DNA of 64,000 nt, from IMG/VR virus record IMGVR_UViG_3300020205_000565, positions 18,030 to 82,029 of that record. One strand, given 5' to 3'. Below the pieces are notes generated by a model. That model made no database searches. It had not been told where the DNA came from and was given only the letters and a program-made list of their open reading frames with translations. This DNA is from a virus. Positions 12,900 through 62,528 of the stretch are shown here, one piece after another (the stretch's first letter is position 1; the number at the start of each line of letters is the position of its first letter). The position numbers were made by a program, and so were the translations under genes.

Positions 12900-15779
12900 T
12901 TATAGTAAACCAACTATATAACTATAAGGAACACTTCCTCCCTCTTCGAAATAGTAATTAGGATTATTTCCTACCCCTGGATCTACTGAAGCGGGCATCA
13001 TACCGTTGTAAGCATTATAGAAGTTAGCATCCATAGGATTTCCCATACCTACATTACCTTTACCTTTTGTCCAAACGTTTGATAAAGGTCCGGCGTATTC
13101 TCTAGCTAAGTCTGGGTTATCTCTTAAGAACTCTGCAAACTGTTGAGCATCATTATGACTAAGCATTGCATTTTGGTTAGCTACCATTTCTCTATTTGGA
13201 GCAAAGAATAGTTCACCGCCAGCCGCAGGATTAATTCCATATTCTGGATACATCGTATTCAGGGTTTGTGCTTTAGCTCTATTAGTAATTCTATTAGCTT
13301 CAGCTTGAGCATATGCATCACGAGCCTCACGTTTAGCGTTATCGTAGTTCTGGTTGGTTGTATTAACTTTATCTACGTAAGCCATCATCTGGCCGGCATT
13401 AAACTTCTGAGCGTCGTTCATTATATCAGCTTGCTTGTAAGCAAATTCGTTAGCTGTTCCAACGTTAAGATTATTATACTTACCCATTATCTTAGCAACG
13501 TTATCTGCCAAACTTCCAGATGCTCCTGCTATTCTAGCGCCTAATGATTGTGAAGATCCCGATGTACCTCTAAATGCATCGGACGTTTCTGTAAGCAAAG
13601 CATTGTTAGCTTGAATTTCTTGCTCTGGATTATAAGGAGTTGGCTCAGGTAACATAGGTTCGTATGATGAAAGAGACGGATAATATCTGTTGATATTAAA
13701 CATGTTTCTTCTAGCATTACCTTCTAGTATGCGGTCCTGTATAAAGTCTGGCGTAGGTTTTCCTGTTTGATACCTTGGAGATTCTCCAGCAGTAGGGTCT
13801 AATAATCTTTCGGTCTCTTCTACTGTATCTTCAAGAGGATTTACTTTTCTATCGTATGTAAATGCATCAGCATGCTCTAATCCTAATTTCTTATCATCGC
13901 TTAATCCTGGACGGAATTGATCTGGTTTAAAGAAATGTTCTACAGCATCTACATAGTTAAGATTAGGTATAACGTTACCGTCTTTATCTTTAATCTCCCT
14001 AGCCGTTCTAACTCTCTTATTACCTTTAACAAATGCAGGTGTGTACAAGAGATCAGGATTATTAATATTAGCAGAAATATGTGGATCATTTATATCCATA
14101 CCTAAAGAGTAGAACATATTTTTTCTGTTCTTTAACTTATCTTCTGCTGATGCCGCATCCCAATCATCTGCCGTCTTACCAGGATTTCTAGCTTGCCAGA
14201 AACGGTACTCATAAAACTTAGGGTCTGTATAACCAAAGAAACCTGTATTCTCAGAAGACTGTAAAGCAATCTGGTATTCTTTTTCACCAGGTACGCCTAG
14301 TACATTATCCTCAGCGCCGTAAGATAAAAACTTAGTTAGGAAATCTTTTTCTGCAGTAGTCATCTTATCACGTGCAGCTTTAAAAATATGCCATCCTGGA
14401 TCTTTATCTGCTTTGCCATCGTTGTCTGAATCCCATCTAGTAGCATGGTATTCTGCTCCTCCGGCCGCTGCTAATTTATCAAGAATTACTTTGGCTTTTT
14501 TCTTATCTTCTTCAAGATTTCCAGTATAGTTTGTTTTACCAGACTTAGTTGAAGCAATAGGTTTAGTCACATCATACTCTTGAACTTGGTAGTACTTACC
14601 ATCCTCTTCGTAAATATCTCCTTTGGTTACAGCTTCAATTTTAGGCTTAAGCTTAGTCTTATCAGCTACAGCAGGTTTAGTAACTTTCTTTACTATATAC
14701 TGTTTACCGTTCTTTGTTATAAGCTTTTCTCCTTCTTGTAATGTATAGTCCTGACTAGTATTACTAGTTGATATATTATTAATATCATTTATACGAACAC
14801 CTCGGCCGTCCTCATAGTAAGTATTGCCATTAGCATCTTTACGAAGATAGATACCAGTACTTGCATCTGGTCTAGGTCCTCTGTTATTATTTGCAGCATA
14901 GGTAGGTTGATTTCGAATCTGCTCTAACAACTGAGTATAATAGTTATTATAATACTCTCGTTCAGCAGTTCTTTGTGCTCTACGCTGCATCCGTCTTTCC
15001 ATTCTAGGATTATATACATCCTGTTCAGGATCAGTTTGACCTCCAGGTGCATACTGTCTTAAATGATTCATCTGTCCCCCGTGTCTAGCCATAGGCATTT
15101 GCTGAGGCATCATTTCAGATTGTTGACCTTCCATAGCGCCTTGTTGCATAGCCATCATTTCTTCTTGCCCAGGTTGAGGTGCTCCCTCAGGCTGTGGATT
15201 CATATCTCTTGGTAAAAACATTGCGGGATCTAAGTTATACTTAGCCATGTATGGCATAGATGCTGTAGCTATTCCTCCCGGAAATCCTTTCATTGATTCT
15301 TGGATCATAGCTAGCTTACCTAACTTAACGTTATAGTTAGCAATAACCATCTCCGCTGTATTAACTTGTAATGCATCAGAATTAGGATCTTGTAATATCT
15401 TACGGTAAGTATTCATGTCGTACTTCTTTGCAATCTCTGCTGGAGTATAACCTCCTTTTTTTGCCGGTAACCCAAATTCTGCAAGTAATACGTCATCCTT
15501 AATTCTCATAGATCGTGTATCACTAAAGATAAATGATTCAGGCGGGACAGCTAAAGCAACTCCCCCTTCAAAGTGACGCTTACCTCTAATGTTATAGTGT
15601 GCAGGTCCTCCTTGTTTATTAGGAATGTAAACTGTTTCGCCTCCTTCGGCTTCTAGATTAGCAGCATCCCTAGGTACTGCACTTAACGTATTACGAACTT
15701 CTACTTGTTTTTTACCAAGCTTATTCGGAATATACTGTGGGGCCATTTGGTTCCCCGTCTTTATGTTGTTACCGTACAT
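12900..15779 (-). CDS. Conserved virion protein of Bacteroidota phages, 959 aa
   Basis: The first 200 residues form the recognisable part: VRNTLSAVPRDAANLEAEGG, then a His-Tyr-containing beta segment (PAHYNIRGKRHFEGG), SFIFSDT, and a helical region with TPAEIAKKYDMNTYRKIL and LAMIQESMKGFPGGI. I remember this arrangement from many large Bacteroidota phage genomes, where it has no assigned function. A Met/Gln-rich linker (about 200-235) contains GGQMNHLRQYAPGG, a loose version of the GG-type motif of the neighbouring giants. The C-terminal half is helical and Asn-rich and ends in an EEGGSVPYSY tail. It follows the 1291-aa gene by two bases. A cargo or tail-associated role is inferred from the cluster. 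No catalytic motif was seen. Confidence 0.85.
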   Translation of the reverse strand: MYGNNIKTGNQMAPQYIPNKLGKKQVEVRNTLSAVPRDAANLEAEGGETVYIPNKQGGPAHYNIRGKRHFEGGVALAVPPESFIFSDTRSMRIKDDVLLAEFGLPAKKGGYTPAEIAKKYDMNTYRKILQDPNSDALQVNTAEMVIANYNVKLGKLAMIQESMKGFPGGIATASMPYMAKYNLDPAMFLPRDMNPQPEGAPQPGQEEMMAMQQGAMEGQQSEMMPQQMPMARHGGQMNHLRQYAPGGQTDPEQDVYNPRMERRMQRRAQRTAEREYYNNYYTQLLEQIRNQPTYAANNNRGPRPDASTGIYLRKDANGNTYYEDGRGVRINDINNISTSNTSQDYTLQEGEKLITKNGKQYIVKKVTKPAVADKTKLKPKIEAVTKGDIYEEDGKYYQVQEYDVTKPIASTKSGKTNYTGNLEEDKKKAKVILDKLAAAGGAEYHATRWDSDNDGKADKDPGWHIFKAARDKMTTAEKDFLTKFLSYGAEDNVLGVPGEKEYQIALQSSENTGFFGYTDPKFYEYRFWQARNPGKTADDWDAASAEDKLKNRKNMFYSLGMDINDPHISANINNPDLLYTPAFVKGNKRVRTAREIKDKDGNVIPNLNYVDAVEHFFKPDQFRPGLSDDKKLGLEHADAFTYDRKVNPLEDTVEETERLLDPTAGESPRYQTGKPTPDFIQDRILEGNARRNMFNINRYYPSLSSYEPMLPEPTPYNPEQEIQANNALLTETSDAFRGTSGSSQSLGARIAGASGSLADNVAKIMGKYNNLNVGTANEFAYKQADIMNDAQKFNAGQMMAYVDKVNTTNQNYDNAKREARDAYAQAEANRITNRAKAQTLNTMYPEYGINPAAGGELFFAPNREMVANQNAMLSHNDAQQFAEFLRDNPDLAREYAGPLSNVWTKGKGNVGMGNPMDANFYNAYNGMMPASVDPGVGNNPNYYFEEGGSVPYSYIVGLL

Positions 15780-15781
15780 AT

Positions 15782-18700
15782 TTATAGATATGAAAGTTTA
15801 CCACCTCTTTTTATAATCTGGTTTATTTGATCTTCTGTCAAATATACCTCGTCTCCTTCTTTTAAGTTCTCCATCATGCTGCCGCCCATCTGAGCATAAG
15901 TATTAAATCCAGAATGGAAAGCGTCATTACCATCAGGGTTTCTCTTACCTCTACGGAAGTCACCAGATAAAATATCATAGTTTCCTTCTGTGCTTCTCAT
16001 AGGATTAAAGTTATTAGACGCTTGACTCCTTGTTTTGTACTCAGTTTCGGCATATGCTGCATCTCTTCTTTTAAGCAAGTTAGTTGCAAAGTTAATAGCT
16101 GCAAGATCTTTCTCAGGATTACGAACTTTTTTCTTTTTAAACTTTGATTCTACATCAAAGCCATCGCCCATAGCTGTATCCTTATCTTCACTTTTCATTT
16201 TTCTTGAAAGATCACTTAAATCAGTAACTATAGGCTTTCCATTAAGGTCTTTAACGCCTAGATCTATTTTATCTGTCGAAAAATCATGCGACATAGGTTT
16301 ACCAAACATATCTGTAACACCTAGGTCAAGTTTGTTATCATATAAGCTATTCATATGATTCTGTATCATTTCTTGTGAACTAGGTAATGACCAATCCATA
16401 ATAGGAGTTGTACCAGGTTGTGCAGAACCAAATGGTCCACCATCATCGTATCTTCTCATAAATCTATGTAAGGATCCGCCTTCTTTTTTAAAGTATTGAG
16501 GTGCAGTATAACCAGTAGCTGGGCTAAAGTAAGTCTGATCTATGTAGTCTTGTACAGCACCAGATCTTCCTGACCAAGCGTTATACTGAGTACCCGGTCC
16601 ACCACTATTACTAGGAAAATCTGTTAGTACCCCACCCGCTAAATCATCAGTCCTAAGATTAGCATAAATAACTTTTCTATGATCTGTTATAGAAGATGTA
16701 AATGCTTGAGGATCATCCGCATACTGTTGATTAATAAGATCTTTGTTATCCTTCCATAACTGATCAGCATTTGTTTTTAACCAACTTCTATATTCAGGAT
16801 TACTAATTACTGGACTACCTTTTCCTGTATAACCTTTATCTACACCAGCAGCTCCTAACACCATTACTCTAGGATCATAACCCGCATTAAATACCTGATC
16901 CGCAGCAATCTCTCTAATTGGAGCAGGCATGTCATTAAAAGATTCCCACAGAGCTTTCTTTTTTGGATCTTTGGCCATTACCGAATCCCAATCTTGTTTT
17001 ACCTTATTAGCATCAGGGTACATGAATTGTCCAGCACTTTTATCTACGGCATAGTTTTTCCAGCTTGGATCATAGTTATCCGGAAGAGCAAGTCCCGCAG
17101 GTTTAGTGCCAAACCACTCACCTTCTGTTTTAACTATTTGATTTTGCGTTCTGTTTAAATCAAAATCAGGAGGAGTATAAGAAGGTGTTGATGGATTAGA
17201 AGGAGTTGATGGAGCCGACGGATTTTTACTAACAGTATTTCCTGGCTTTTGATTAGTACTATTAGCTGTATTAGTACTATTAGCTGTATTAGTAGTATTA
17301 GTAGTATTAGTAGTATTAGTAGTATTAGTAGTATTAGAACTGCTACTAGGATTTGCAGTGTTATCGGCATTTCCATTATAACTAAAAGTCATTGACTTAA
17401 GTCTATTACCCGGATCCCTTGCTATACGAGTTTTAATCTCAGATACACCAAGTAACTGTGGATTACCATAACTACCAGCTAACATCTTTTCTCTAAAGTC
17501 TTTTGTAAGTCTGTTCTTAGAGATAACTCCTAAGTTTCTACCTCTCATGCTTCCGTAAGCAGCATAGGGATTATATCCACCGTAAGGATTATAATTGTCA
17601 TAATCCTGAGTTCCTCTTGAAGATTGGGGATTATATCCTAGAATTTCCCTTGTGACAGGATCTACAGCATATCTTACTCCGTTAATTACTGTTGTATTCT
17701 CATTAGTCGAGTTATTATGACCATCATAAAGTATATTACGATTGTCAGTTCCAATGATCTCAGATCCGTTTGGAGCAGTTTTTTTCTCTGTTTCTTTAGG
17801 AAGGTTATTTGGTTTATACCAACCCCCATTAGGGTTTTTAACATACCCTTGATCAGTAAACATTTTATCTTCTTCTGGACTACCAGTAGTAGTTAATGTA
17901 TTATTAGCAGTAGTACTAGGCTCTTTATCTCCTTGATACTTTTTTAAAGCTCCTCCGTCTCTATAAGGGATTTGCTCATAGCCAATACCTTTATTAAATC
18001 TATCTAAAGCATTTCTTTGTCGGGTATTATCTAAATTAGGAACAGACCATCCTGGTCCTTCTTTAGGGTATATATACTCTGTGCCAGCAGAATTATCAAG
18101 AGAATCGCTATAAGCACCTTGCATCATATCTCTAAACTGAGCACCATACTGGGGACCAACTCTATTAAATATATTATACGCCCCTATTTGTTGTTCAGAC
18201 ATAGCCTCCTCATTAGCAAGATCTCTGTTGTACTTATCTAAAAACTGATTGTAGGCAGCATTTTCTGGATGCCCTAAAACATTCCTTTCGAGGTCCAAAG
18301 TACGTTTTCCATAAAGTTTATGTTTCTTCATGTCAATTCCGGAGTTATCTAAATCCACCCCATAAATGCTTTTCATAGGAAAACCATGGTAGTCTAATTC
18401 TGTCCAAGGGTAGACAGTACCATAACCATTATAAGCTTGTCTTCTAAGAAGTTCATCATTGCCATATCCTAGTCTAATAGCTTCTTTATCTTTTTCGGTT
18501 TTAGCAAAAGCCATATCATATGCCGCACCCCTATTTTGAGGATCGCGATAATCTAAAACATGACCGTAGTTAGGATCAGTTTTTCCTAGATTTGATTCTT
18601 GAAGAGCAATAGACATTAATTCTTGAGGACTCTGACCATACTCTCTAGCCGCTCTTGCAATCTCACCTATTACGCCTGTATGATAATCACCACTTTTTAG

Positions 18701-19657
18701 ATCCACATTTGGATTAATAGGTTTACCCGAAGTAGCATTAATAGTACGAGGGTCATTGATATGTACACGACTTGGATAACTTGGTGCTTTATATTGTGGA
18801 TGTTTCTTACCATAACCCCAATTAGACTTTCTATAACTATCAATATCATCGTGCCCCATTTCTAAGGCGCGTTTATATACATCTAGGTTCATTGCATTCT
18901 CAAGTACCCCACTTAAACCGTCCTGAGCTCTTGGTAAAGCTCCTCCATCTCTTTTAGTAAAGAGTAAGTCATCTCCAAAGTTGTTAGCGTAGTTAGGATC
19001 GTTTGGTCTAAAAGGTTCTTGAGGATATGTGCTTGTAGGGGGTTGTGAGGGAGGAGTAGGTTTTTTAACGCCCGGTCTATCCCTATAGATATTCTTTTCT
19101 TTATAGTAATAATCATTAGGACCTAATGCTCCCATTCTTTGCACATAACCGGATACAGCATTTTGGCTTAAACGATTAAGGTAGTTAGAATTTTTTGCGT
19201 ATGCGTTTAAGTTTCCGGGATCATATGAATTCATAGGGTCGCTGCCCATACCCATACCATACTGAGCCATAGGCTGTTCTTGGTCTTGTTCCATGACGGC
19301 TTTCTCAAGATTTTTCTCAGCAGCATCGCGAATCTTTTGAATAAAAGTATTCATTCGATCACTATAAAAGCTCGTGTCTTCGTCCTCTTCTTCTACTGCG
19401 TTTGGATCGCCTCCTTCTTGCATCATAGGAAAACCATTGCTATAGTAATGGTCAAAGTCCTGCATAGTTTTTTCGTTTACTCCTCCTAAGTTTGCACCTG
19501 TTTGGTATTCAGGTAATCCCATAGGAGAAGCTCCCATAGATCCTACCGAACCTCCGTCAGGCATCCTTAAGAATAAATTACTTCCGCCATTCTGGAATCT
19601 TAGAGGAATCATTGTTCCTCCTTCCTTAGACTTATATCGATTGATCATTTTATTCAT
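15782..19657 (-). CDS. Giant virion protein with lytic-transglycosylase-like and possible second lysozyme-like domain, 1291 aa
   Basis: The N-terminal 240 residues contain several GG motifs (FQNGGSN, MPDGGSVG, MQEGGDP), ending in RDGGALPRAQDG, the same motif that punctuates the 2926-aa protein. Residues about 325-480 look like an SLT-type peptidoglycan lyase: an ARAAREYGQSPQELMSIALQ helix followed by ESNLG, with the catalytic-type Glu near residue 353. A Thr/Asn-rich linker (about 765-800) is encoded by a 9-base tandem repeat. A second region (about 840-1040) has VKTEGEWFG and AADQVFNAGYDPRVMVLGAAG, which recalls lysozyme/GH108 folds, but only weakly. The C-terminus contains KKEGGSLHRF and ends with RGGKLSYL. 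A plausible role is local cell-wall digestion during DNA delivery; virion location is inferred. Confidence 0.85.
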   Translation of the reverse strand: MNKMINRYKSKEGGTMIPLRFQNGGSNLFLRMPDGGSVGSMGASPMGLPEYQTGANLGGVNEKTMQDFDHYYSNGFPMMQEGGDPNAVEEEDEDTSFYSDRMNTFIQKIRDAAEKNLEKAVMEQDQEQPMAQYGMGMGSDPMNSYDPGNLNAYAKNSNYLNRLSQNAVSGYVQRMGALGPNDYYYKEKNIYRDRPGVKKPTPPSQPPTSTYPQEPFRPNDPNYANNFGDDLLFTKRDGGALPRAQDGLSGVLENAMNLDVYKRALEMGHDDIDSYRKSNWGYGKKHPQYKAPSYPSRVHINDPRTINATSGKPINPNVDLKSGDYHTGVIGEIARAAREYGQSPQELMSIALQESNLGKTDPNYGHVLDYRDPQNRGAAYDMAFAKTEKDKEAIRLGYGNDELLRRQAYNGYGTVYPWTELDYHGFPMKSIYGVDLDNSGIDMKKHKLYGKRTLDLERNVLGHPENAAYNQFLDKYNRDLANEEAMSEQQIGAYNIFNRVGPQYGAQFRDMMQGAYSDSLDNSAGTEYIYPKEGPGWSVPNLDNTRQRNALDRFNKGIGYEQIPYRDGGALKKYQGDKEPSTTANNTLTTTGSPEEDKMFTDQGYVKNPNGGWYKPNNLPKETEKKTAPNGSEIIGTDNRNILYDGHNNSTNENTTVINGVRYAVDPVTREILGYNPQSSRGTQDYDNYNPYGGYNPYAAYGSMRGRNLGVISKNRLTKDFREKMLAGSYGNPQLLGVSEIKTRIARDPGNRLKSMTFSYNGNADNTANPSSSSNTTNTTNTTNTTNTTNTANSTNTANSTNQKPGNTVSKNPSAPSTPSNPSTPSYTPPDFDLNRTQNQIVKTEGEWFGTKPAGLALPDNYDPSWKNYAVDKSAGQFMYPDANKVKQDWDSVMAKDPKKKALWESFNDMPAPIREIAADQVFNAGYDPRVMVLGAAGVDKGYTGKGSPVISNPEYRSWLKTNADQLWKDNKDLINQQYADDPQAFTSSITDHRKVIYANLRTDDLAGGVLTDFPSNSGGPGTQYNAWSGRSGAVQDYIDQTYFSPATGYTAPQYFKKEGGSLHRFMRRYDDGGPFGSAQPGTTPIMDWSLPSSQEMIQNHMNSLYDNKLDLGVTDMFGKPMSHDFSTDKIDLGVKDLNGKPIVTDLSDLSRKMKSEDKDTAMGDGFDVESKFKKKKVRNPEKDLAAINFATNLLKRRDAAYAETEYKTRSQASNNFNPMRSTEGNYDILSGDFRRGKRNPDGNDAFHSGFNTYAQMGGSMMENLKEGDEVYLTEDQINQIIKRGGKLSYL
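17254..17336 (-). repeat. 9-base tandem repeat encoding a Thr-Asn linker
   Basis: Five near-perfect copies of a 9-base unit (plus-strand TATTAGTAG) at about 17287-17336 continue into degenerate copies back to 17254. On the minus strand they encode repeated Asn-Thr-Thr, then Asn-Thr-Ala/Asn-Ser-Thr, separating the two lysozyme-like regions. Because the unit is a multiple of three, slippage would change linker length without breaking the frame. Confidence 0.9.
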
Positions 19658-19697
19658 AATGTGCTAAGATAAGCATTATACTATAAGATACTGATTT

Positions 19698-22640
19698 TTA
19701 CTTGGTTTTCCAATTGTTAGGTAAGGCGTTTATTTTTACGCGTTTAGTCTCTCCTCCCTTTTTTTGTTTAGGATAAGTTGGACCATAAAGCTCACGTAAC
19801 TTAGTTTGTAAATCGGATAGGTATTTTGCTTGATTAGGGGTAAGCTCCCGCATTTTTACAGTTCCTGCGGCATCATCCCAGTATTTCATGCTGTTATTAA
19901 AATCACCTATTTCAGATAAAAGTCTTTTACGTACATTCGATACATGTTGTGTAGATGTGTAATCTAATAGACCATGTGACATAAATGGTTTTCCAATAAA
20001 TTTATCAAGCTTAACTGTAAAACCCCTTGGTGTTTCCATAGTTTGCGGTAGATTTGGATTTGTTGCACCTGTAGGAATGGTTTTCATAAAAAGTTTGTCT
20101 TGTACTTTTGTAGGGAGTAACCCTTGTATTTTTTTGGGAACTAAATCTGAAAATTTTATGAATGGTTCTATGTCCCATATGTCATTATATTCTAAACCAT
20201 TTTCCATTAATCTTTGGTTATATCCGCCCAGCAGGTAGTTATCTCTATGTAATGTTATAGCCTTGTCTAAAGGTTGCATAACCTCAGAAAACTTACTAGA
20301 TCCTTCGCCTGTAAGTCCTCTAGACATCCTATCAACTACTCCTGCAAATACTTTATCTTCAGGAATATTATAAATATCCATTCCTCTTAAAGATCCCGGT
20401 GGATAAGCAGCATGCAGGCTAGGAGCAGTATTCGCCATATTAAAAGTTCCGAATTGTTGGGGCATACCTAGATATGCTCTCCATCCGTCACTTCTTATTT
20501 GATTTTCAGCAAGTCTTTCTTCCCAAGCAGCCTTACTCATTTGAGTTCGTAAATTATTTTTCCAACCACCCCCTCTAATATTACTTATCGTCTGCTGAAC
20601 TTTATTTTGAGCTGGACCGAAACCCGAATATCCAATAGGTGTGAGATAATGATTAGCTAGTTCTGAGAATATTGGTTTATATCCTTGTCGTTGATTAGAT
20701 GTTATACCTACTTCAGCAAGTTGTCTCTGAGCAATTTCAAAATCAGTTAAACCTGCCTGTAGTCCTTCATTTTGAATTTGAGCTAATGCTCTTCTTGTAT
20801 TATACGATTCCATAAAAGCCGAAGTAATAGGCATTGCCGCCTCTACTCCTGTTTTTATTATAGCTCCTGCAAAAGGCGCTATTTCTAAAGCAGTAAATAA
20901 ATTCTTAGCAACAGCATCTGCATAATCAAGCGGATTACCTGTAGAGTTAGCATGTTTCCAAGGTTCCGAAACTCCTCCGCTCATTATTGTATTTGCCCCC
21001 TTTACTCCAAATCCGTAAGTTAAAGCATTACCTGCATTAAGCCAAGGAACAGCTTTTGGGGCTGCATTTAGGAGTTGTCTTACACCAGCCCCCGTAGCTT
21101 GCATAAGGGGGGATGATGATGTTGCTCCGTAAAGCATTTCTCCAAGACCTGCTAATCCCGCTTCACCAAGAGCAACAGGGGCCATTAATAAACTTTCAAA
21201 AATAGGCACACTAGGTAAACCTGCCGGATCGTTAGGATACGGCATCTGCCAGTCCGGATCTCCCGGTTGAGGAATCCTAGGTGTTAAACCATTTACCTGA
21301 TCCCATTTTGCAACAAATTCATCTTCTGCCATTCTTCTATCAGCAGCAGCATTAGCGTCAGCTTCTTCTTTAAGTTGTTTAAAATTAGCTGGTAACTTTT
21401 GTGTAGGTACTTTAGTAGACTCTGATACTGCTGTAGGTCTAGCAACTTTCCTTACATCTCCAACAAGATTTTGTTTTACAGGAGGAGCTGCATTTTTATA
21501 GTCAAGTATGTTTCTCCAATCTGGTGGGCCGTACTGAGCTTTAGGTAAACTATTTATCTTAACTCTTCTTAGATCTGGTACAGAGATACCTCCTCCGCTT
21601 TTATACTTAGGGTATTGACCGCTTTTTAACAAATCTATCTTTTGTTCTAAGTCAAGAGCTGGTCTATAGTTACGTCCAACTGATGGAGAGGCTGAACCAA
21701 AAGGAGCAATTTGATTCAGTTCAGTCTGAAGTGCTTTTGACAAATCGTCAACATACATGGTTGATGTATAGTTTAGGTTACCGTGCGACATGAATGGCTT
21801 TCCAACAAATTTACTTACCGGAATTTTCATTTGTCTAGCTTGTGTAACAAAGAATGGTTGATTACTATAGCCGCTAGAAGTATGGCTAGGATGTGTTGAG
21901 GCACGTGATATAGGAACCTCCTTATAAAAAAGTTTTTCTTTCCATTTTTCCGGCATGACCCTTTTAACGCTTTTTGGTACCAAGGATGAAAAATTAATTG
22001 TCGGATCTAAATCCCATATATCGTTATACTGTAATCCATCTTTTGTTAGTACTTTATTATACCCTCCCATAAGTATAGGATCCCTATCTAATAATATTGG
22101 TTTATCTAAGGGGCCCATACCATCTTCGCGTAGGCCGTATCTTGGCCCAATTGTATTAGTTACTTCGTCAAAGCCGGTACCAAATATTCTGTTTTCGGGA
22201 ATATTATAAATATCCATTCCTGCTAAAGATCCAGGCTTATAGGCCGGATGCATTACTGGAGCAGTATTTGCCATATTAAAAGTAAAATTTTTCTGAGGCA
22301 TACCTAAATAAGTTCTCCATGCGTCATCTCTTATATTCAGATCACGATTTGCCTGACGTATAGCATTTGCTTCAGCTGCAGATGTTTCTGCAGTTATGTT
22401 TCCCATAGCTGCTCGTCTTGGAGCTTCCCATCCATTAGTTTTAATATTACTCAAGGTTTGTGCAATCTTTGACTCACCTGCTCCGGTGTATCCAAAAGGC
22501 GTTACATACTTATTAAATAATTCTGATGCACCTGGGAAATACCCCCTACGTTGATTAGCTGTTATACCTACATCTGATAATTGTTTTTGTGCAATTTCAA
22601 AATCGTTTAGTCCTAGGGCCCTACCTCTTCTTTCAATTTC
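19698..22640 (-). repeat. Tandem duplication B1/B2 within the 2926-aa gene, still visible in DNA
   Basis: B1 (about 21530-22640) and B2 (about 19698-20780) are offset by 1860 bases at the 22561/20701 match. Nucleotide identity is visible by eye, for example the shared GCAATTTCAAAATC and GCCATATTAAAAGT blocks, so the duplication is more recent than A1/A2. A non-duplicated Ala/Gly-rich hydrophobic stretch (near 21160) lies between them. Confidence 0.8.
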
Positions 22641-25600
22641 AGATAGTTGTCGTCCTACTTTTGTAGTATAATTACTAATCTGATTAGGGAGTCTAGGTAT
22701 ACCCCTAACAGCAGGAACTGCTGCAGATAAATCTAAATAATTACTTACTGCGTGATCTCTATATTTAGGGTCAAATAATCCTAAGGTTTGTCCTAATAAA
22801 TATTCACCCGGATGATCTACAATTTGTTCTCCTTGCCTATAAGCAGCGTTCCCTAAAAATCCTGGTAGACCTGCTGCCATATCTACTACAGAAGTCATAG
22901 GCGATCCTACACCATAACCTTCATAAGGATTATGCATTCCCATGTATCCACTTGGAATATCATAACCTCTATTAACAGCAGCTATAGTTTCCATAGGATG
23001 GCTTATAGCAGTCCATGCTCGTCTTGCAAATTTCTCAGTATCACTTCTAGTATCTGCACTAAGTTCATCCCTGCGTTTCAGTGCCTCCGGTAAAGCATCA
23101 TAAGCTGCTTTTTCTTTCATCATATCTAAAATCTGCGGACCACTTAAACCTTCCCAATCTATAGGGGCATTAAACATATTAGCAGGCCTTGTAGATTCTG
23201 CTACGGCTGACCCTGATATTAGATCCTGATTCATTTTTTTGAAATCAAAATCTGAAAAAACATTTTCATTTGCTGGGGCTGCTGATGCAGTCTTAGGTCT
23301 TGGTCGGAGATCAAATGTATGTTTATATTCATCAGGGATATTAATCCCAAGTTGAGGTTTAAAGTTAATACTAGGAGTAGGTAGTTTCTTTTGTTGGAGA
23401 TTAGCTGGAATATTTAATTTAACCTGCCCTTTAAGTTGATACTTATCTAGTTCTCCGCCTTCCTGTAATTTAAAACTTTCACTTGCTTCGTTCTTTCTCC
23501 TTTTTTGTAATCGTTTCTGTTGTTCTCTAAAGTCCTCAACTTCATTGATAGCATCCTTTACATCAGTATACATTTTAATATCAGGATTATAATTTACACG
23601 AGCTGTACCCCCGCTTGGACTATAAAATTGATTTTGTTGCGCATCATCTAACCATTGTGATGTAAGGGTAGCACCTAATAATTTTGAGGTATAAGTACCA
23701 TCGCCATTATCTTTCTTGTAATGCAAATAAGAAACACCAGGATTACCACTATCTTGTAATGTATAATTTTCACTGGAATCCTGAAATGTCTTAGAGTCTT
23801 CTTTAATATCTTCCGGTTGACCTTTTACTTCTACAGGTTTATCTATTACAGGTGTTTCTTGTTGTTTAGGTGTTTCTTCTTTTTTAGGAGGATTAAGTTT
23901 TGCTTTTAATTCTTTAATTGCGGAAGCCTTATCTTTATAAGGACTACCGCTTGTTCCAAACTTTTCTAAACGTTGTATCCTTTGTTTAGTAGTAAGTTTT
24001 TTCCAAGGAGTTACTGCAAGTTTATCGTAAGTATAAATAGAAACCTGGTCACCTGATACTAGATCTTCCATGCCCTTTAAATACTGAGGAGATATTCTAG
24101 TGTCATATAGCTGCATAGGTGAATCCATATTAAGAATAGTATTTGCGTTTTCCCTCTGTTGAAACTTATAATCATCTAACTTTTGGTATGCGTCAGTATC
24201 CCAAACGGGGTCTTGAAGACCATTGGTTGTCATGACTTCACCATTTTTGTATTTAGTTCCAGGTATTGATTTACCAGGAATAAGTCTAGAAATTTTCATA
24301 TTGTCATATATCCATTCTCTATCCTCTGGTTTAAACTGAACAGGTCCGCTATGAAAGCGTTTAGTATATCCAGCAGACTTATAAAAATTCATTATATCAT
24401 TTGCATGGTTTGCTACCATACTAGAATCTGCTGCCGTTGCTAATCCTCTTTGTGCTTTAGGTAATTCACCGCCCTTCTTACCCATTGGTATAGCATATGG
24501 ATCTTTTTTATTACCCGTAGATACTTGAGAGTCATGAATCTTTTTTAGTAAGTCTCCTCTACCACGAATTAATTTGTATAGGTCAAAACTTGTACCATCG
24601 TTATTTTTAATATCAGCATCAATGATGCTTTGTATTTCCTCATTAGTATAATCTTTTACAGGATCAATATTATTTTGCATACGCCATTCATTTAGTCTGG
24701 CTCTTATTTCAGTAGGATTATAATAATAGTCTGTTAATTTCTGCTTTTCACCAAAAAGACTTCCTAAACCACTTGATGAGTCCATGTCCTCCTTATTAGC
24801 AAAGGGTAAATAAACACCGCTTGCTTTATTAACTTGATCGGTACCTTCAGGACTTGGTTGTTTATATTCCTGCGGAATAATATTATCTAGTACGGCATCT
24901 TCTTTATTGTATGCTGGAGTTAACATTCCAGCAGGATTTTGAGGATGATTATAATCTAAATAGTGACTCTCTTCATGAGCCATTACACTTGGATTTTTAA
25001 ATCCACTTGGTGGTATGAATATAGAATTCATTAACGGTAATATGTTTACAGCGCGCGAAGCCATGTATACCCCTCCTGTATCAGGATGATCTTTGTCATA
25101 CTCTTCTTGAGAACCATAAGGCTGAAAGTCTACATTTGGTAGTCCCGCAAGTCTTCTATTAGCAACTTCTGTAAATTGCGGAAGTGCTGCTCTTTTAGTA
25201 TACCAGTCCCTATAAAAATCATTAACCTGATCCCTACTTTGAAAATAGTCATTTCTAAGTTCAGGATCATAACTATTCCAATCAATGTAATTCTGTGAAT
25301 GTCTTACTCCTGATGGTATTCTTGCTTCTGGTAAATCACCTGTAAATCCTAAACCCGGATATAACCCATATGGGTTATATCTTCCAAGATAAGGAACCTC
25401 ACCGTCGTATGAATATTGAATATCAGGTGATGGACCTAATTCAGCATCTACCTGACTCATAGAAGGTACGTTATCCATTCTAAAGGCAGAGGAACCATCA
25501 GGGTCATTTATGTGGCTCATGAAATAGTCAAGTCGTTTTTCCCCCAACTTCTGATCTCTAAAAAACCTATCTTGCTCTTCTAAAGGAAGTTGTTCTTTTT

Positions 25601-28478
25601 GAAGTGGTGTTAATTTCATAAATTTATCCCAATCATCCCACGTAGGTGTGCCCCCGTTTTGAAATTTAGCAGGTGTATATTTAGTATCAGGAGCTTTCGT
25701 AGGTTTAGGTGCTCCTGTAATAAACCCTTTTAAAGTTCTTCTAACTGAGCTGTTAGCATAATCTTGAATAGCATTAGTTCCTACTCTGTTATAAAGGTAG
25801 TTACCATCTTTAGATTTACTTTTATGTCTCCAAGGTTTTTCAGGATCTACAGCTCCACCATATGCATAGCCTCCTGCTTTTTTCTCCGCTTCTATTTCTT
25901 CTTGTACTTTTTTCAGTCTTGCTTTTTCTTGATCTCTTTGTTGCTGTTGATATTGTTCATAGGCAGCTTTTTCAGCATTTACCTCATCAACATTTCTCTT
26001 TTGCATTTCTAAAGCTTTTTTTCTAGTCCCGCGTCGTTCTTCAATAATATCAAGAGGTTGTCGTAAGTCATGCCACATCCGGGCATTGGGATTAAAGTCC
26101 ACACGTGCGGTACCTCCAGCTATGCTATCAAATTCTTTTTGTTGGTCAGGAGTTAAATAGTCTTCTGTTAAAACAACCCCCATGTTGCCACTTTTACCAT
26201 GGACAACCTCGCCATTCTCATCATAAACTGTTCTATACAAATAAGCAGCACCTCCCCCATTACCTGTTTCATGTAATGAATAATTTTCTCTTGCGCCACT
26301 CTGTACAGTTTGTTCTGACTTCTTCCCAGTATTACTTTTATTATCTTCCTGACCTACCTGCTCTTTTGAATTAGAGGTTGACGTAGTGGCGCCGCTACTT
26401 GTACCTGTGTTAGAAATAACATCTGTTGTTTTACCGGAAAGAAGATTTATTACAGTCTCTCTAGGATTACTTTCAGATTTAATCTTATTAAGCAATTCTA
26501 TGTTTTGCTTACCGGTACCACTATAATCTTTTATTCCGTATTTCTCAGCTAGTTTTTTCCTTTCGGAATAGCTACTTTGTTTTTTATCTAATCCTAATTC
26601 GGTTCTCATATAGTAACCTATATCAGTATTAGCGTTTGGTTCTTTTTTAACTATATTAATAGCTTCGTAAACACCATTTCCGCTAGTTGAATTACTACGA
26701 GTTTTTGGTTTTTTGGCCCACTTATTTTGGTCATATTCAGCCGCCCCCGACTGTGTAGCAGGGTACCCAGACTTAGCAGCATTAGCTATTGTCTGTGCAT
26801 CATATACCATAGGGTTTTTACCCCATTTATTTTTTTCGTATAGCGCCGCTCCTTCTTGTGTTGCAGCATATCCTGATTTAGCAGCATTACTTATGGTTTG
26901 TTTATCATACCCTTCAGCACGTCTTCCGCCATGAGCCATAGCAATGTCTGGATAATTTTGGATAAGTCTTGGATCATTCCAATCTTTAAATGGAGTACCG
27001 TCCAATATGCCATACTCTAATCTTTTTCTTTTATCTTCAGGACTTAGTATAGACCAAGGAGCCGTATAAAATTTTTCATATATCGGCATGTCGACAATAT
27101 CCGCGTTACCTGAAAAATATCCCGGAGCCGTACCTTGCAAACTAAAAGTAGATCTTGGATCTATTCTGATGTCGTATAATGCTTTTGGGGCATCTGTATT
27201 AAGAATTTTCTTATGGTCATCAGCATATTGTCTAAATCTATACGCGTTTTCCCATTCGGCAAGACTTTCGTTAGTTAAATTTTGTACACCTCCAATAAGA
27301 TTAAGTCCTCCTGCTAGCGCCATTGCCCCAGCTTCCCCTAAACTAAGAGAAGGTATTTCAACGTCGAACTTAGGTAAGTCTATTGCAAGACCGCCCTGGC
27401 CTAAATCATCTGATCCTATAATTGTTTGTCTTCCTCCCACATGCAAAGTTGTCGGAGTAGTGGATTTATCTGCAGCTTTTTTAATCTTATCCATACCTAT
27501 CATCCTCACACCATTTCTAGATCTGGCTGGTTCTTTATCTCCAACTTTAGATCCTCCATAGTAACCTTGAGAATTATACCAATCTATGACTTGTTGAGCA
27601 GAGTTTGCTACATCAAGGGAATCTTGAAAACTAGCAGGGCCACCAGGACCACCAGGGCCACCAGAGCCTCTTCCATACTGTGCTTTAGGTAATGAATGTA
27701 TCTTAACTCTTTTCATTGCCCCGCCATTTTTCTTATTTGGAAAAATAGATGAGTTACCCTCTTTTATATATTGCTCATATTGTCTAGCCTCCCCCTCTAA
27801 TGTTGATGGATCTGCATATTGTAAATTTTCAGCACCAACAAAAGATAAGTGACCATTCTCGTCTGGTTCAGAACCATTTCTTAGTTTATCCCTAGGAATA
27901 AACTGTAAACTTGGATCTTGCGCAATCATGTTATCTATAGTTCTATTTACGTCATTATCTCTTCTATTATAGTAACCTTCAATTGCTTCATTAGATGCTG
28001 TAGTCAAATTAGGTCTTTTACCTAATGGACCTAGAGAACTCATTCCACCGCTTAAATTTTGCAAGTGATGTAATAGTTCATGCTGCATCCACCAATCATT
28101 ATTCTCTATTGAGCCTGGTCTTGTATCTTGATTAATTTGACCTTGTACTGGGTTATATCCTGTATACTCATCTGTTTCATTTATTCTAGGATAAACAAAA
28201 TTTTGTAAAGCCTCTCTATATTGTGGAGGTAGTTGGTAGGATGGTCCTCCCATTTGAGCCATAGGAATTTCGTAGACCGAATTACCCGGAAACTGATAGT
28301 CTGCGCCAGGCATCATAAGTTTCCGGTTGCCAAAGTTATCAATACCTAGTATGGGTCCTTTTCTTAAAGGTGTTCCATCATCTTCTTTCATGGTAATCAT
28401 GCCAGAAGGAATTTGAAGATAAGGTTCGTTCTTGTCCTTAGAATTTTTTTTATAACCTTTGGTCGAAACTTTAGCCAT
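19698..28478 (-). CDS. 2926-aa modular virion polyprotein with two HExxH metalloprotease motifs and tandem duplicated modules
   Basis: This is the largest gene here. Module A1 has HELLHHL at residues 133-139 (zinc-protease type), a later EGEARQYEQY stretch that could supply the third ligand, then the motif NGGAMKRVKIHSLPKAQYG (about 251-269) and a beta-rich part with ALYDIRIDP, YSLHETG and GGTARVDFNP. Module A2 repeats the order: HEESHYLDYNH at 1168-1178 (HExxHxxxxxH spacing), NPTEIRARLNEW, KKGGELPKAQRG near 1335, LYDTRISP, YTLQDSG and GGTARVNYNP. Modules B1 and B2 (about 1945-2315 and 2565-2926) are clear duplicates sharing DFEIAQ(K/R)QL, WR(T/A)YLGMPQ, FNMANTAP, GMDIYNIPE and GKPFMSHG. B1 ends in RRVKINSLPKAQYG; B2 ends the protein with KRVKINALPNNWKTK. 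It overlaps the muzzle-like gene by one base. A packaged, perhaps processed, host-entry protein is inferred. Confidence 0.9.
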   Translation of the reverse strand: MAKVSTKGYKKNSKDKNEPYLQIPSGMITMKEDDGTPLRKGPILGIDNFGNRKLMMPGADYQFPGNSVYEIPMAQMGGPSYQLPPQYREALQNFVYPRINETDEYTGYNPVQGQINQDTRPGSIENNDWWMQHELLHHLQNLSGGMSSLGPLGKRPNLTTASNEAIEGYYNRRDNDVNRTIDNMIAQDPSLQFIPRDKLRNGSEPDENGHLSFVGAENLQYADPSTLEGEARQYEQYIKEGNSSIFPNKKNGGAMKRVKIHSLPKAQYGRGSGGPGGPGGPASFQDSLDVANSAQQVIDWYNSQGYYGGSKVGDKEPARSRNGVRMIGMDKIKKAADKSTTPTTLHVGGRQTIIGSDDLGQGGLAIDLPKFDVEIPSLSLGEAGAMALAGGLNLIGGVQNLTNESLAEWENAYRFRQYADDHKKILNTDAPKALYDIRIDPRSTFSLQGTAPGYFSGNADIVDMPIYEKFYTAPWSILSPEDKRKRLEYGILDGTPFKDWNDPRLIQNYPDIAMAHGGRRAEGYDKQTISNAAKSGYAATQEGAALYEKNKWGKNPMVYDAQTIANAAKSGYPATQSGAAEYDQNKWAKKPKTRSNSTSGNGVYEAINIVKKEPNANTDIGYYMRTELGLDKKQSSYSERKKLAEKYGIKDYSGTGKQNIELLNKIKSESNPRETVINLLSGKTTDVISNTGTSSGATTSTSNSKEQVGQEDNKSNTGKKSEQTVQSGARENYSLHETGNGGGAAYLYRTVYDENGEVVHGKSGNMGVVLTEDYLTPDQQKEFDSIAGGTARVDFNPNARMWHDLRQPLDIIEERRGTRKKALEMQKRNVDEVNAEKAAYEQYQQQQRDQEKARLKKVQEEIEAEKKAGGYAYGGAVDPEKPWRHKSKSKDGNYLYNRVGTNAIQDYANSSVRRTLKGFITGAPKPTKAPDTKYTPAKFQNGGTPTWDDWDKFMKLTPLQKEQLPLEEQDRFFRDQKLGEKRLDYFMSHINDPDGSSAFRMDNVPSMSQVDAELGPSPDIQYSYDGEVPYLGRYNPYGLYPGLGFTGDLPEARIPSGVRHSQNYIDWNSYDPELRNDYFQSRDQVNDFYRDWYTKRAALPQFTEVANRRLAGLPNVDFQPYGSQEEYDKDHPDTGGVYMASRAVNILPLMNSIFIPPSGFKNPSVMAHEESHYLDYNHPQNPAGMLTPAYNKEDAVLDNIIPQEYKQPSPEGTDQVNKASGVYLPFANKEDMDSSSGLGSLFGEKQKLTDYYYNPTEIRARLNEWRMQNNIDPVKDYTNEEIQSIIDADIKNNDGTSFDLYKLIRGRGDLLKKIHDSQVSTGNKKDPYAIPMGKKGGELPKAQRGLATAADSSMVANHANDIMNFYKSAGYTKRFHSGPVQFKPEDREWIYDNMKISRLIPGKSIPGTKYKNGEVMTTNGLQDPVWDTDAYQKLDDYKFQQRENANTILNMDSPMQLYDTRISPQYLKGMEDLVSGDQVSIYTYDKLAVTPWKKLTTKQRIQRLEKFGTSGSPYKDKASAIKELKAKLNPPKKEETPKQQETPVIDKPVEVKGQPEDIKEDSKTFQDSSENYTLQDSGNPGVSYLHYKKDNGDGTYTSKLLGATLTSQWLDDAQQNQFYSPSGGTARVNYNPDIKMYTDVKDAINEVEDFREQQKRLQKRRKNEASESFKLQEGGELDKYQLKGQVKLNIPANLQQKKLPTPSINFKPQLGINIPDEYKHTFDLRPRPKTASAAPANENVFSDFDFKKMNQDLISGSAVAESTRPANMFNAPIDWEGLSGPQILDMMKEKAAYDALPEALKRRDELSADTRSDTEKFARRAWTAISHPMETIAAVNRGYDIPSGYMGMHNPYEGYGVGSPMTSVVDMAAGLPGFLGNAAYRQGEQIVDHPGEYLLGQTLGLFDPKYRDHAVSNYLDLSAAVPAVRGIPRLPNQISNYTTKVGRQLSEIERRGRALGLNDFEIAQKQLSDVGITANQRRGYFPGASELFNKYVTPFGYTGAGESKIAQTLSNIKTNGWEAPRRAAMGNITAETSAAEANAIRQANRDLNIRDDAWRTYLGMPQKNFTFNMANTAPVMHPAYKPGSLAGMDIYNIPENRIFGTGFDEVTNTIGPRYGLREDGMGPLDKPILLDRDPILMGGYNKVLTKDGLQYNDIWDLDPTINFSSLVPKSVKRVMPEKWKEKLFYKEVPISRASTHPSHTSSGYSNQPFFVTQARQMKIPVSKFVGKPFMSHGNLNYTSTMYVDDLSKALQTELNQIAPFGSASPSVGRNYRPALDLEQKIDLLKSGQYPKYKSGGGISVPDLRRVKINSLPKAQYGPPDWRNILDYKNAAPPVKQNLVGDVRKVARPTAVSESTKVPTQKLPANFKQLKEEADANAAADRRMAEDEFVAKWDQVNGLTPRIPQPGDPDWQMPYPNDPAGLPSVPIFESLLMAPVALGEAGLAGLGEMLYGATSSSPLMQATGAGVRQLLNAAPKAVPWLNAGNALTYGFGVKGANTIMSGGVSEPWKHANSTGNPLDYADAVAKNLFTALEIAPFAGAIIKTGVEAAMPITSAFMESYNTRRALAQIQNEGLQAGLTDFEIAQRQLAEVGITSNQRQGYKPIFSELANHYLTPIGYSGFGPAQNKVQQTISNIRGGGWKNNLRTQMSKAAWEERLAENQIRSDGWRAYLGMPQQFGTFNMANTAPSLHAAYPPGSLRGMDIYNIPEDKVFAGVVDRMSRGLTGEGSSKFSEVMQPLDKAITLHRDNYLLGGYNQRLMENGLEYNDIWDIEPFIKFSDLVPKKIQGLLPTKVQDKLFMKTIPTGATNPNLPQTMETPRGFTVKLDKFIGKPFMSHGLLDYTSTQHVSNVRKRLLSEIGDFNNSMKYWDDAAGTVKMRELTPNQAKYLSDLQTKLRELYGPTYPKQKKGGETKRVKINALPNNWKTK
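23425..28478 (-). repeat. Diverged tandem duplication A1/A2 within the 2926-aa gene
   Basis: Copy A1 (about 28478-26000) and copy A2 (about 25650-23425) keep the same order of landmarks: HExxH (28068-28082 and 24963-24977), GG...LPKAQ motif (27673-27732 and 24445-24483), LYDxRI (near 27175 and 24105), GGTARV (near 26110 and 23605). Similarity is seen at protein level only; boundaries are approximate. Confidence 0.6.
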
Positions 28479-31400
28479 TAGCGAGGGGAGTTAAGTAGTT
28501 TATTATTAGTCACCTTAAGTAGCATCTTCACATTATCAGATACAGTTCTTATTAACACAACGTGATTAGCGTAATGTCTAAACTTCTTTCTTTCGAAAGG
28601 TGACTTATTTAAGTTAATGTTGTTATTATTTAATGTACGAATATAACCGTTAAGTTCTGTATTCCAAATAGGTTGTTGTACTAAAATTCCTCCGGCCTGA
28701 AATTCTCCACGGTTTCTAGTGAAGTCCCAGAACTGATTGAATCTATACTTTTGTTCTTCCTTAGAGAATAAAATGTTTATGATGCCTGTTGTTGCATCTA
28801 TCTGAGGATAGTTTACAATTATCGGGGCATTGTTTTTAGGACTAAGATTTAATCTTAGGTTACCGGAAACTTGCTCGTTATTATAAACGATAGCTCTATC
28901 AAAGTTAAAGTCTAATACCTCGTAACGATCAATACCATCTTGGTCATAAACATAGCATTCAAGTAAGTACTCTATGCTTCTTGTTGTAGTAACAGTTTGA
29001 CCAGTAGCAGAAATATAATCTATCTCAAATGGATAGTCTGCCCCATAGTAGTTACAGAACTTAGATGTATTATTATAGTGCTTCCAGATCTTACCAATTC
29101 CGTTATCGGTCTTAGTAGTAAGGAATCCTTTAATGTTAGATATACCAAGTTCCGGATGCCAGTCGTGGAAGGATAACCAAGCTTTAATTTTAGGATCAAA
29201 GCTTATTGTCCAGGATACGTTATCGAAGTAAATCGGATTTCCTAGTTCGATAGCATTATTACCATAGTAAAATTGATCCCCTTTCCGAATAGTAACCACA
29301 CCAATAAACTCGTCTTTAACTTTATAGTCAGTTTTAGAGAAGTATATAATTTGGTTTTCGTTATCAAACGTTGTTTGACATCCGATACCCATTATGGGAT
29401 TTCCTACCAGCGGGAAGTCTGGGAACTGATCTAATAGGAAATAATGTAGGTACTTAGAGAACCACCACTTCATTCCTAAGTCTGAGATAGGCTGCATTCC
29501 TTCTGCTACTGTAAAGATCTTACCTTGAGAAGCGCTCATCCAGTATACACCGGCCGGAGTATTAATTACTGATAGTCTATCCTGGCAAGAGCCATGTTGG
29601 AATTCTATATCAGCGTTACTTAAAGTTTGTAACGGTTGGCTAAATAGGCCACCGTCTCCAATAGTAATCTTTGTACCTGATGTAGTTTGTAAACTATCTA
29701 CAGCATTAAACATTACCGGGCTAGCTTTCTCTTGAAGAATAATAGCACCGTTTCTATTGATAGATTTAAATGCCGTTACCTTACTATCGAAATCATAGTA
29801 GTTATTTACTAAGAATATCTGCCAGTAATCTTTCTTGTCCTCCTGACTATTTGGTAAGGAGTAGATTACTCTATACGGATAATACTGATAGCATGTCTCG
29901 GCAACATATGGATCGTAAGATCTATTCTGCATAGATCCCCATGTTATATAATTATTCATCGTACGAGATACTCCTAGGGAGATGTCGTAGTTAAAGTAAT
30001 TACCAAACTTGATTATACTTGTATCAAATAATCCTTTAAGATCTTTAGTACCATAAGGATTGTAGAACTTCTCTTCTGGTAATTCTCCTTCATCTCTTAA
30101 GTCAATATTATATTCAGATTCTACAAAGAAGTCTCTTACTCCAGATTGGAATAAATACATTGTTCCGCGTAAAACACCTATGATGCCTTTATTTAAGCCT
30201 ACACCACCTGTATCATCATTTACAGCTTCTGTTGTTTGTGCACCTGCATACTTATCTAGATTATATTTTCCAGAAGGCATTGCGTCCCTTATATTACCAG
30301 CAGATATACCTAGTATCCCGTTTGAAACGTTTTGCATAAACTCACTTGCTGAAAACTTAGTAAAGTCTGCCCAAAAACGAGGATAGCTTATCATGTACTT
30401 GAGCGTATAGTCTATCTCAGTTCCTGCGGGAACATCATATAACCAGTCATAGAAATAGAAGAAAGTATTTTTCTCTGTATAACGACCTACATACGTATCG
30501 CCTCCAAATACAGCTGGGGATTTTATAACTACTACCTGCCCAGCATCAGCTTGAGTAAGTTCCTGGTTGAAAGACGTTTTAAATCTATTAACACAACCTG
30601 TAGTAATTTGATTAGCTGATTCTATTTGACCATACTGATTACGAAGTCTAATTTTAAGAGCTCCATACATACAAGATGTTGTAGCAAAGAATTTACCTGA
30701 TGTTGGATTGGCCGTAGTTATATCTCTGTTTATAACATCGTATGGTGTATTATCTCCCGGATCGCCACCATTTATTCCAGCATAAGCTCCTGCGTAAATG
30801 CTATTCTGAATAGCGGAACCAACAGTTTGTATAGATCCATCTGTGACAGTTGGCGCAAAAGCATTCTGCATGAAGATAGGATTATCTACAATAGAACCAT
30901 TAAGATTTTTACCTAGATGAATTGCTACGCAGTTAGGTCTAAATAAATTATTAACTTTATAGTTACCTATAAACTGGAACTGACCTTTTAAGTAAGAAAC
31001 ATCATTAATTAATCTTCGAGTATTACCGCTTCCTTGATACGCTGTTTTAATATTACCCGGCTGCAGTTTATGTAGATCAAGATGACTAACAGTACGAAGA
31101 ACAAAATCTCTATACGGTGCTAGAGCATACATTAAATCAAGTATACTATCTATACCTTGTGACCAGTAGTATGCAAAAGTTACAATACTATTTCCGGCTA
31201 ATACACCTGTTGGAACATATTGATAATCTCCATACGTAAGAGATCTACTTAAAGAAGGTGGTGCTAATCCAGCTGATGATGTACCCGATGTTGCTGATTG
31301 GGCTATTATATAAGCTGCTAATGCTTCATTCTCATCGGCATTAAGAGATGGATTTAATCCACCTAGTGCAGCAGCAAGTAAATGCACCGATGTCGCTGCA

Positions 31401-44292: not shown

Positions 44293-44886
44293 TTACAAAT
44301 AATCTTTCATCTCGTGGTCCAGTAAGCGCATTGCTGTCTTATCTGTACCAAAAGCATTTAACTGGTCAACCCAGTTCTGCATCTTGTTATGCTCCTCTAC
44401 CTGTTCTTTTAAATAAGCTAAAGCAAACTCATATAACATATGGTCCGCTTTCTTCATAGCGTCACCTGCTAAATCTTTGATCTGCTTAGTCACAGTGATC
44501 TCATGATCATAAGACATCTGTATAATTTCAGGAAGACCGTTAAAGGTTTGGTTAGGCGAATCTAGTTTTGGGGTAAGCGGTTGTACTCCCATGGATAATA
44601 AGTAGGTTCTTGCTAAGTCTGAATGAGACATCTCTTCATTAGAGTATCTGCGCCATAGTTTAGCAGCATTAACATAACCGTTGTTATCTAACCACATCGA
44701 CATAGCCAAGTATATTCTACCTGAGTATTCCTCTTGTTGTACACGATAGTTTAGATACTCTACACAGTCATCTGATAAAAGTATGTTCTTACCTTTTGTA
44801 GATGGTGCTTTCTTTATAGTTGATGCGGCAGGACTGGTAATACCTACTACTTCTCGCTTCAATAAATTTCTCGGTTGTTCCGCCAT
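44293..44886 (-). CDS. Ferritin (non-haem, FtnA-like) with N-terminal extension, 197 aa
   Basis: Residues 37-197 align by eye along the full length of bacterial FtnA. The ferroxidase residues are all present: E52 with Y59 (EEYSGRIYLAMSMW), E85 and H88 (NEEMSH), E129 (YDHE), Q162 and E165 (EQVEEH). So the encoded protein should oxidise Fe2+ with O2 and could form a 24-mer iron-storing shell. Unlike FtnA it carries about 36 extra N-terminal residues rich in basic and Ser/Thr residues, which may bind the virion or act as a cargo tag. It lies between a connector protein (12 bases after its stop) and a likely major virion protein, so late expression and virion association are inferred. Codon style matches the neighbours. 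Confidence 0.93.
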   Translation of the reverse strand: MAEQPRNLLKREVVGITSPAASTIKKAPSTKGKNILLSDDCVEYLNYRVQQEEYSGRIYLAMSMWLDNNGYVNAAKLWRRYSNEEMSHSDLARTYLLSMGVQPLTPKLDSPNQTFNGLPEIIQMSYDHEITVTKQIKDLAGDAMKKADHMLYEFALAYLKEQVEEHNKMQNWVDQLNAFGTDKTAMRLLDHEMKDYL

Positions 44887-62405: not shown

Positions 62406-62528
62406 TTACATTTTTAGTTCATTAAGGGCTTGCAAAATAACCTCTACATCTTTTAAAGTATATATACCTTTTAATGTAGCTGCGTTTAAAGCTTGCTCAA
62501 TAGTTTGAATTGCTTTTTCTTTTTCCAT
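62406..62528 (-). CDS. Small helical protein, 40 aa (paralogue of the gene at 59351)
   Basis: The sequence MEKEKAIQTIEQALNAATLK continues GIYTLKDVEVILQALNELKM. Its start overlaps the stop of the 465-aa fibre gene (TAATG), implying translational coupling. Related to the 50-aa protein downstream at about half of the positions. Both occur immediately after genes with YadA-like repeats. No known function. Confidence 0.8.
   Translation of the reverse strand: MEKEKAIQTIEQALNAATLKGIYTLKDVEVILQALNELKM

Follow-up and report, generated by a model that had tools for sequence, protein, structure and literature searches.

Crassviruses dominate the human gut virome, and their protein cargo amounts to several megadaltons. 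How a phage selects the proteins that it loads beside its genome has, to our knowledge, been worked out well only in T4-like systems. In T4, a short and usually N-terminal peptide, the capsid targeting sequence (CTS), is carried by the divergent internal proteins IPI–III and Alt and lets differing cargo enter the virion (PMC9026906, PMC5694885). In crAss001, a single gene between those of the muzzle and C2 encodes the cargo protein C1 (gp45), which is present in both capsid and tail (PMC10172136). For the polyvalent proteins, passages of Iyer et al. 2017 propose zincin-driven processing, with P1 DdrB as a processed example, and describe the N4 virion RNA polymerase, which has a similar peptidase domain, as packaged uncut (PMC5512222). 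In the Cellulophaga phage phi4:1, gp038–gp042 are virion proteins by MS/MS.

Here we analyse a short motif that recurs in three neighbouring genes of a 64-kb stretch of viral DNA (the window), whose source record in IMG/VR spans 82 kb. The motif is apparently undescribed in the literature searched, where a text search for LPKAQ together with phage returned nothing relevant.

The three genes downstream of the muzzle gene

By its profile matches, the window is a divergent crassvirus, from a crAss-like phage of freshwater. Crassvirus Pfam and PHROGs profiles for the major capsid protein (MCP), muzzle, ring 1, ring 2, portal and TerL were matched, the crassvirus profiles found being PF23898, PF25731, PF24228, PF25702, phrog_6547 and phrog_6681; the muzzle protein lies at 28478-33823 (PF25731) and the MCP at 48105-49724 (PF23898). 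Among the phage structural genes there is also a ferritin-like protein (44293-44886, minus strand; PF00210, E 4.7e-21), and a 465-aa protein at the window edge (62528-63925, minus strand) has a weak, below cut-off match to collagen-like repeats (PF01391).

Downstream of the muzzle gene come genes A, B and C, then that of a 1097-aa protein, which occupies the place of C2 by gene order only, and then those of large RNA-polymerase-type proteins. Protein A (19698..28478, minus strand), directly downstream of the muzzle gene, is a giant multi-module protein of 2926 aa with five motif copies. Protein B (15782..19657, minus strand; 1291 aa) has three clear copies and a conserved C-terminal tail. Protein C (12900..15779, minus strand; 959 aa) has the gene position of crAss001 C1 and consists of a conserved N-domain, one GG motif in a predicted disordered linker, a variable middle and a conserved helical C-terminal part.

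Judged from its sequence and from those of its relatives, protein A is best regarded as a candidate polyvalent protein. Its conserved N-terminal domain (residues 1-78; 28245..28478, minus strand) is also the N-terminus of Cellulophaga phi4:1 gp040 and phi17:2 gp041, with 38.8% identity over 78 aa (E 0.1) to the Cellulophaga phage counterpart. Two zincin-like signatures follow, HELLH at residues 133-137 (28068..28082, minus strand) and HEESH at residues 1168-1172 (24963..24977, minus strand); the protein has no Pfam match. One relative's 2507-aa A protein (L117:11746-19269) contains an ART-PolyVal ADP-ribosyltransferase (PF18760, E 1.2e-10, above cut-off), and another block protein (L205:2162-5383) opens with a SET-domain-like region (PF00856, above cut-off). 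Starts similar to the latter were also seen in block proteins of L197, L198 and L208; such SET-like starts suggest a virion-borne methyltransferase. A further nine proteins of the A and B types from relatives had mostly no Pfam match.

Protein C is likely the counterpart of C1. Its N-domain (15195..15698, minus strand; AlphaFold2 mean pLDDT 91.9) resembles predicted structures of phi4:1 and other phages, matching a phi4:1 structural protein in BFVD with probability 1.00; a BFVD entry named 'Cargo protein 1 compact domain' also matches, at E 0.7. HHalign gave a weak profile match to the gp45 family (61%, E 8e-5) over gp45 481-543, in the portal-bound domain, and only 1.5% against the single gp45 sequence. 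Foldseek searches with the full 959-aa model and with the N-domain returned no PDB match, although gp45 entries (for example, 7qog) are in the PDB, so the homology of C to C1 rests on gene order and the weak profile match.

A motif at module edges and protein ends

The motif occurs in two forms with one common core, GGxLx[KR][AYF]Q and [KR]V[KR]IxxLPKAQxG. The copies that an earlier note had named are all present, each on the minus strand and no more than a few bases from its stated position. In protein A, they are NGGAMKRVKIHSLPKAQYG (27672..27728, residues 251-269); GKKGGELPKAQRGLATA (24432..24482, residues 1333-1349), with the core KKGGELPKAQRG at 24444-24479; LQEGGELDKYQLKGQVK (23418..23468, residues 1671-1687), which has the looser form EGGELDKYQ; DLRRVKINSLPKAQYGPP (21522..21575, residues 2302-2319; core RRVKINSLPKAQYG at 21528-21569), at the junction between two homologous modules; and the C-terminal ETKRVKINALPNNWKTK (19701..19751, residues 2910-2926; core KRVKINALPNNWKTK at 19701-19745). 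This C-terminus is conserved in the A proteins of two relatives, G001 and G004. Protein B carries KRDGGALPRAQDGLSGV (18905..18955, residues 235-251; core RDGGALPRAQDG), YRDGGALKKYQGDKEPS (17915..17965, residues 565-581; containing RDGGALKKYQG) and KKEGGSLHRFMRRYDDG (16439..16489, residues 1057-1073; containing KEGGSLHRF), and protein C carries ARHGGQMNHLRQYAPGG (15039..15089, residues 231-247; core HGGQMNHLRQYAPGG), whose residue G234 is at least 90% conserved among 35 relatives. In an AlphaFold2 model of C built with 35 sequences, residues 231-247 fall in a segment of pLDDT <50 between the confident N-domain and the variable middle; where tested, the motif thus lies in predicted disorder.

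The recurrence that the earlier note described is real and specific. Regular-expression matches in A, B and C number 9, whereas 2000 residue shuffles average 0.12 and never exceed 2; the other 30 proteins of the window (13,681 aa) have none. The same holds across related phages. A profile of the C domain retrieved 80 loci; automatic parsing covered 67 of them, and dereplication reduced these to 45. Over these 45, the motif is enriched about 40-fold in the A/B/C block and nearly absent from the flanking genes. The pattern GGxLx[KR][AYF] occurs 41 times in the block, against 1.0 in shuffled sequence, and in neither the muzzle nor the downstream proteins. For [KR][VYF][KR][IV]x(1-3)[LVIA]P, the block has 48 copies against 1.1 in shuffled sequence, the muzzle one and the downstream proteins none; 39 of the 48 are N-terminal and 6 C-terminal. 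L.[KR]A[QK].G has 44 occurrences, none in controls and none in one shuffle.

Because the N-terminal copies on C are orthologous and count as one conserved feature, we also enumerated, independently of the motif, 5-residue patterns that recur in two or more different proteins within a locus. The top patterns were KVRI.K (7 loci), KVRI...P and L.KAQ.G, with GG.L..AQ, K.GG.L.K and VKI..LP near the top; the shuffled maximum was one locus. These counts are modest, each exact pattern being found in 3 to 7 loci, and related fragments may be present in some of the multi-ORF loci.

A strict DNA pattern for KVKIxxLPKAQ matched 8 contigs among 2.9 million viral contigs (IMG/VR), in genes immediately after the muzzle. 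All eight are from crassviruses: the six genomes tested each have a crassvirus muzzle, and the other two matches are further records of phages already included. With the whole 2926-aa protein as query, tblastn against phage records gave no close relatives, and viral contigs yielded no confirmed one; the relatives were retrieved with the 959-aa protein and the MCP.

Crassviruses are known to infect Bacteroidota. In the Leptolyngbya phage Lbo-JY46 (PP438436.1; L129-L131), MKIRIIGLPKAQIG opens one protein of this block; this phage has the crassvirus gene order and the tag, yet its recorded host is cyanobacterial, which deserves a check. Two contigs from metagenome-assembled genomes (MAGs) encode C proteins starting KVKINKLP or KIKINKLP and B proteins with LPKAQFG or GGDLPKY. 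Three MAG contigs labelled Campylobacteraceae, Pseudomonadales and Woesearchaeota (L227, L228 and L229) have the C gene and crassvirus-like neighbours, and are probably phage contigs binned into MAGs.

The earlier note had placed the motif between domains or at a protein end, and N-termini, C-termini and module junctions all bear this out. Its range is broader than first noted, with an N-terminal tag on further proteins of related phages. Protein C has such a tag in 38 of the 45 loci by regular expression, and visual inspection adds a few (for example, MYYKVRIKKMPKARTG); the C proteins of the window phage and of the two relatives nearest to it do not have it. B proteins often start with a MKKKVRIYKAPDGNGKYINKTAQFLRKAQMGG-like sequence, which is the motif with an insertion, and the KV[RK]I part begins 23 of 43. 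Possible ends of A proteins at related loci are KRVKINALPNNWK, KKVKIKSLPRKNK or GGWLDKYK, and C-terminal ends of the (G)GWLD[KN] type were found in 9 proteins.

Modules are swapped around the motif. The relatives' MCPs are 94-99% identical, yet the A proteins have 2926 aa (window), 2286 aa (G001) and 1275+454 aa (G004), and these three have in common only their two ends and some modules. The N-terminal 78 aa of window A are 79% identical to those of G001 and the remainder is mosaic, homologous modules being flanked by different motif copies in the two phages. In G004, the A gene is split, and its second ORF starts at AYKKVKILSLPKAQYG, where the window protein is fused. In another relative (L140), a 652-aa ORF starts with MRKVKIKSLPKAQ, while the homologous window module starts after EGGELDKYQ, so the two motif forms appear interchangeable. 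Homology break points fall within 10 aa of a core motif 2.5 times as often as expected, against about 1 for control dipeptides, a descriptive ratio given that HSPs are not independent.

Such clustering of break points would also be expected if the motif were a flexible GG hinge, or a DNA homology patch that promotes shuffling, with no binding partner. In keeping with a patch, two protein A copies have 7 of 8 synonymous codon choices in common (3.4 expected). A third copy lacks this sharing, with 3–4 of 7 (3.2 expected), which indicates that the peptide and not the DNA is conserved; an origin purely from DNA repeats is thus not supported for all copies. A pure hinge, for its part, would neither retain KVKI, LP and KAQ nor sit at protein termini, and we consider the hinge or patch quite improbable.

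Processing, chaining or loading as possible functions

The earlier note offered two functions, a site for a virion protease and a sorting or loading tag, and it is the latter that our results support better. If the motif were a processing site, a phage or host protease would cut it and free the modules, either inside the virion or once they are injected; the motif might then serve for targeting as well as cutting, like the T4 capsid-targeting peptide. Its placement between modules and near termini would suit such cutting, and the short N-terminal tags of the T4 internal proteins are indeed cut off (PMC9026906). Window A has the two HExxH zincin signatures, and zincin processing is what passages of the polyvalent-protein account propose (PMC5512222). 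A cleavage site accounts for the internal copies but not for the extreme C-terminal ones (those ending in GGWLDKYK or KRVKINALPNNWK), which leave almost nothing downstream to release. Nor is a protease consistently present: HExxH is confined to 9 of the 45 loci and missing from at least 32 that bear the motif, the S77/S78 prohead protease (PF03420, PF04586) was not found in six genomes, some of whose records are fragments, and no protease family was found in the scanned structural genes. The uncut N4 polymerase, as those passages describe it, also speaks against processing (PMC5512222). Given the C-terminal copies and the many motif loci without a zincin, proteolytic processing is less likely, and we judge it unlikely overall; zincin self-processing as a general mechanism is rejected on the patchy distribution of HExxH.

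The block holds a second shared element. Protein B ends in an acidic tail, GGSMMENLKEGDEVYLTEDQINQIIKRGGKLSYL (15785..15895, minus strand), which is also found on relatives' B and A proteins. Its consensus, GDEVYMT.EEI..FL..GG.VEYL (the GDEVYLTEDQINQIIKRGGKLSYL type), ends 38 of 43 B proteins, 17 of 43 A proteins and no controls, and the tail is a possible second tag or docking element. It allows for a scheme in which cargo docks to cargo: the basic tag (KVKI..LPKAQ.G), N-terminal or internal, would bind the acidic C-terminal tail of a neighbour and chain A, B and C for ordered ejection. Tag and tail are opposite in charge and belong to the same block. Window C, however, has no N-terminal tag though window B has the tail, and crAss001 gp45 has GG motifs but no obvious tail, making this chaining improbable in our estimation.

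We tentatively favour a docking or loading role, with the motif acting as a short linear tag on the ejected (cargo) proteins of crassviruses, and give this a little less than an even chance; the motif itself is real and specific, and a function for it is probable on the sequence evidence. Unrelated cargo polypeptides encoded between the muzzle and C2-like genes would each bear at least one copy, in flexible linkers or at ends. During assembly, each copy would attach to one shared site, either close to the portal or tail lumen or on a partner cargo protein, and the modules between copies would be loaded, and threaded out at infection, regardless of their fold. Loading would then require the tag but no particular module, leaving modules free to be exchanged. 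A docking tag would explain why the motif is common to non-homologous block proteins, is either terminal or internal, lies in flexible sequence and has modules exchanged around it.

For the window phage, packaging and binding are inferred, as are the partner's identity and any influence on loading. A virion location of its A, B and C proteins is presumed from relatives only, the Cellulophaga counterparts being MS-detected in virions. In crAss001, RNA-polymerase and C2 proteins are also packaged; their window counterparts are without the motif, so it is not a general packaging signal. The missing N-terminal tag on C in the window phage and its two nearest relatives weighs against the tag reading.

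A common peptide tag would make crassvirus cargo selection directly testable. It predicts which unknown giant proteins are injected, and in phages of Bacteroidota it could be used to label selected proteins for loading.

Relation to known cargo and targeting systems

The closest precedent for such a tag is the T4 CTS. Similar to the CTS, one short tag is found on divergent proteins (A, B and C) with a presumed location in the virion interior, as judged from relatives. Unlike the CTS, copies here are also internal and C-terminal, with several per protein, the consensus is unrelated, and a gp21-like prohead protease (PF03420, PF04586) had no match in six genomes, some of them fragments.

Polyvalent proteins, in the passages of Iyer et al. 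2017 drawn on here, are giant mosaics of disparate enzymatic domains that are predicted to be injected; ART-PolyVal and SET in relatives' proteins, and the zincin signatures in window A, suggest a possible resemblance. In those passages, polyvalent proteins are described without a common boundary tag, unlike the window system.

Cellulophaga phi4:1 and phi17:2 share with the window the homologous A N-domain and the fold match to C. In phi4:1, gp041 (phi17:2 gp042) has a lysozyme-like domain and two zincin signatures, with GG linkers joining them, and is MS-detected in phi4:1 virions. Unlike the window, phi17:2 lacks LPKAQ copies, and only the GG part is recognisable.

In crAss001, gp45 has the repeats AYGGPL, AFGGSL and AFGGWL. 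This protein and its counterparts in eight relatives together have 51 occurrences of GG.[LMI], compared to 12 in shuffles, the nine proteins being related and not independent. From the shared GGxL and its position, we infer that these repeats may be the same motif as the window tag. Separately, the segment of crAss001 gp45 at 222-343, bracketed by GGGL and FGGSL, is common to Carjivirus communis KP06_gp47 and crAss002_30, otherwise divergent proteins from different gut crassvirus families, and is another module exchange near a GG motif.

A wider proposal is that such tags form an order-wide crassvirus system, bracketing swappable enzyme cassettes that are loaded at the portal and injected, with crAss001 C1 using an AFGGxL form. 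We hold this to be rather doubtful; if true, the tag would amount to a natural plug-in platform for protein delivery.

Gut crassviruses have one C1, whereas window-type phages have three motif-bearing proteins. Similar to the crAss001 locus, the C gene of the window and its relatives lies between the muzzle gene and a C2-like gene, and C has a helical C-terminal part. In C1, the [AF][YF]GGxL repeats adjoin defined segments: AYGGPL immediately precedes the resolved segment 214-245, and the portal-bound segment 425-552 starts with AFGGWL (ranges from PMC10172136).
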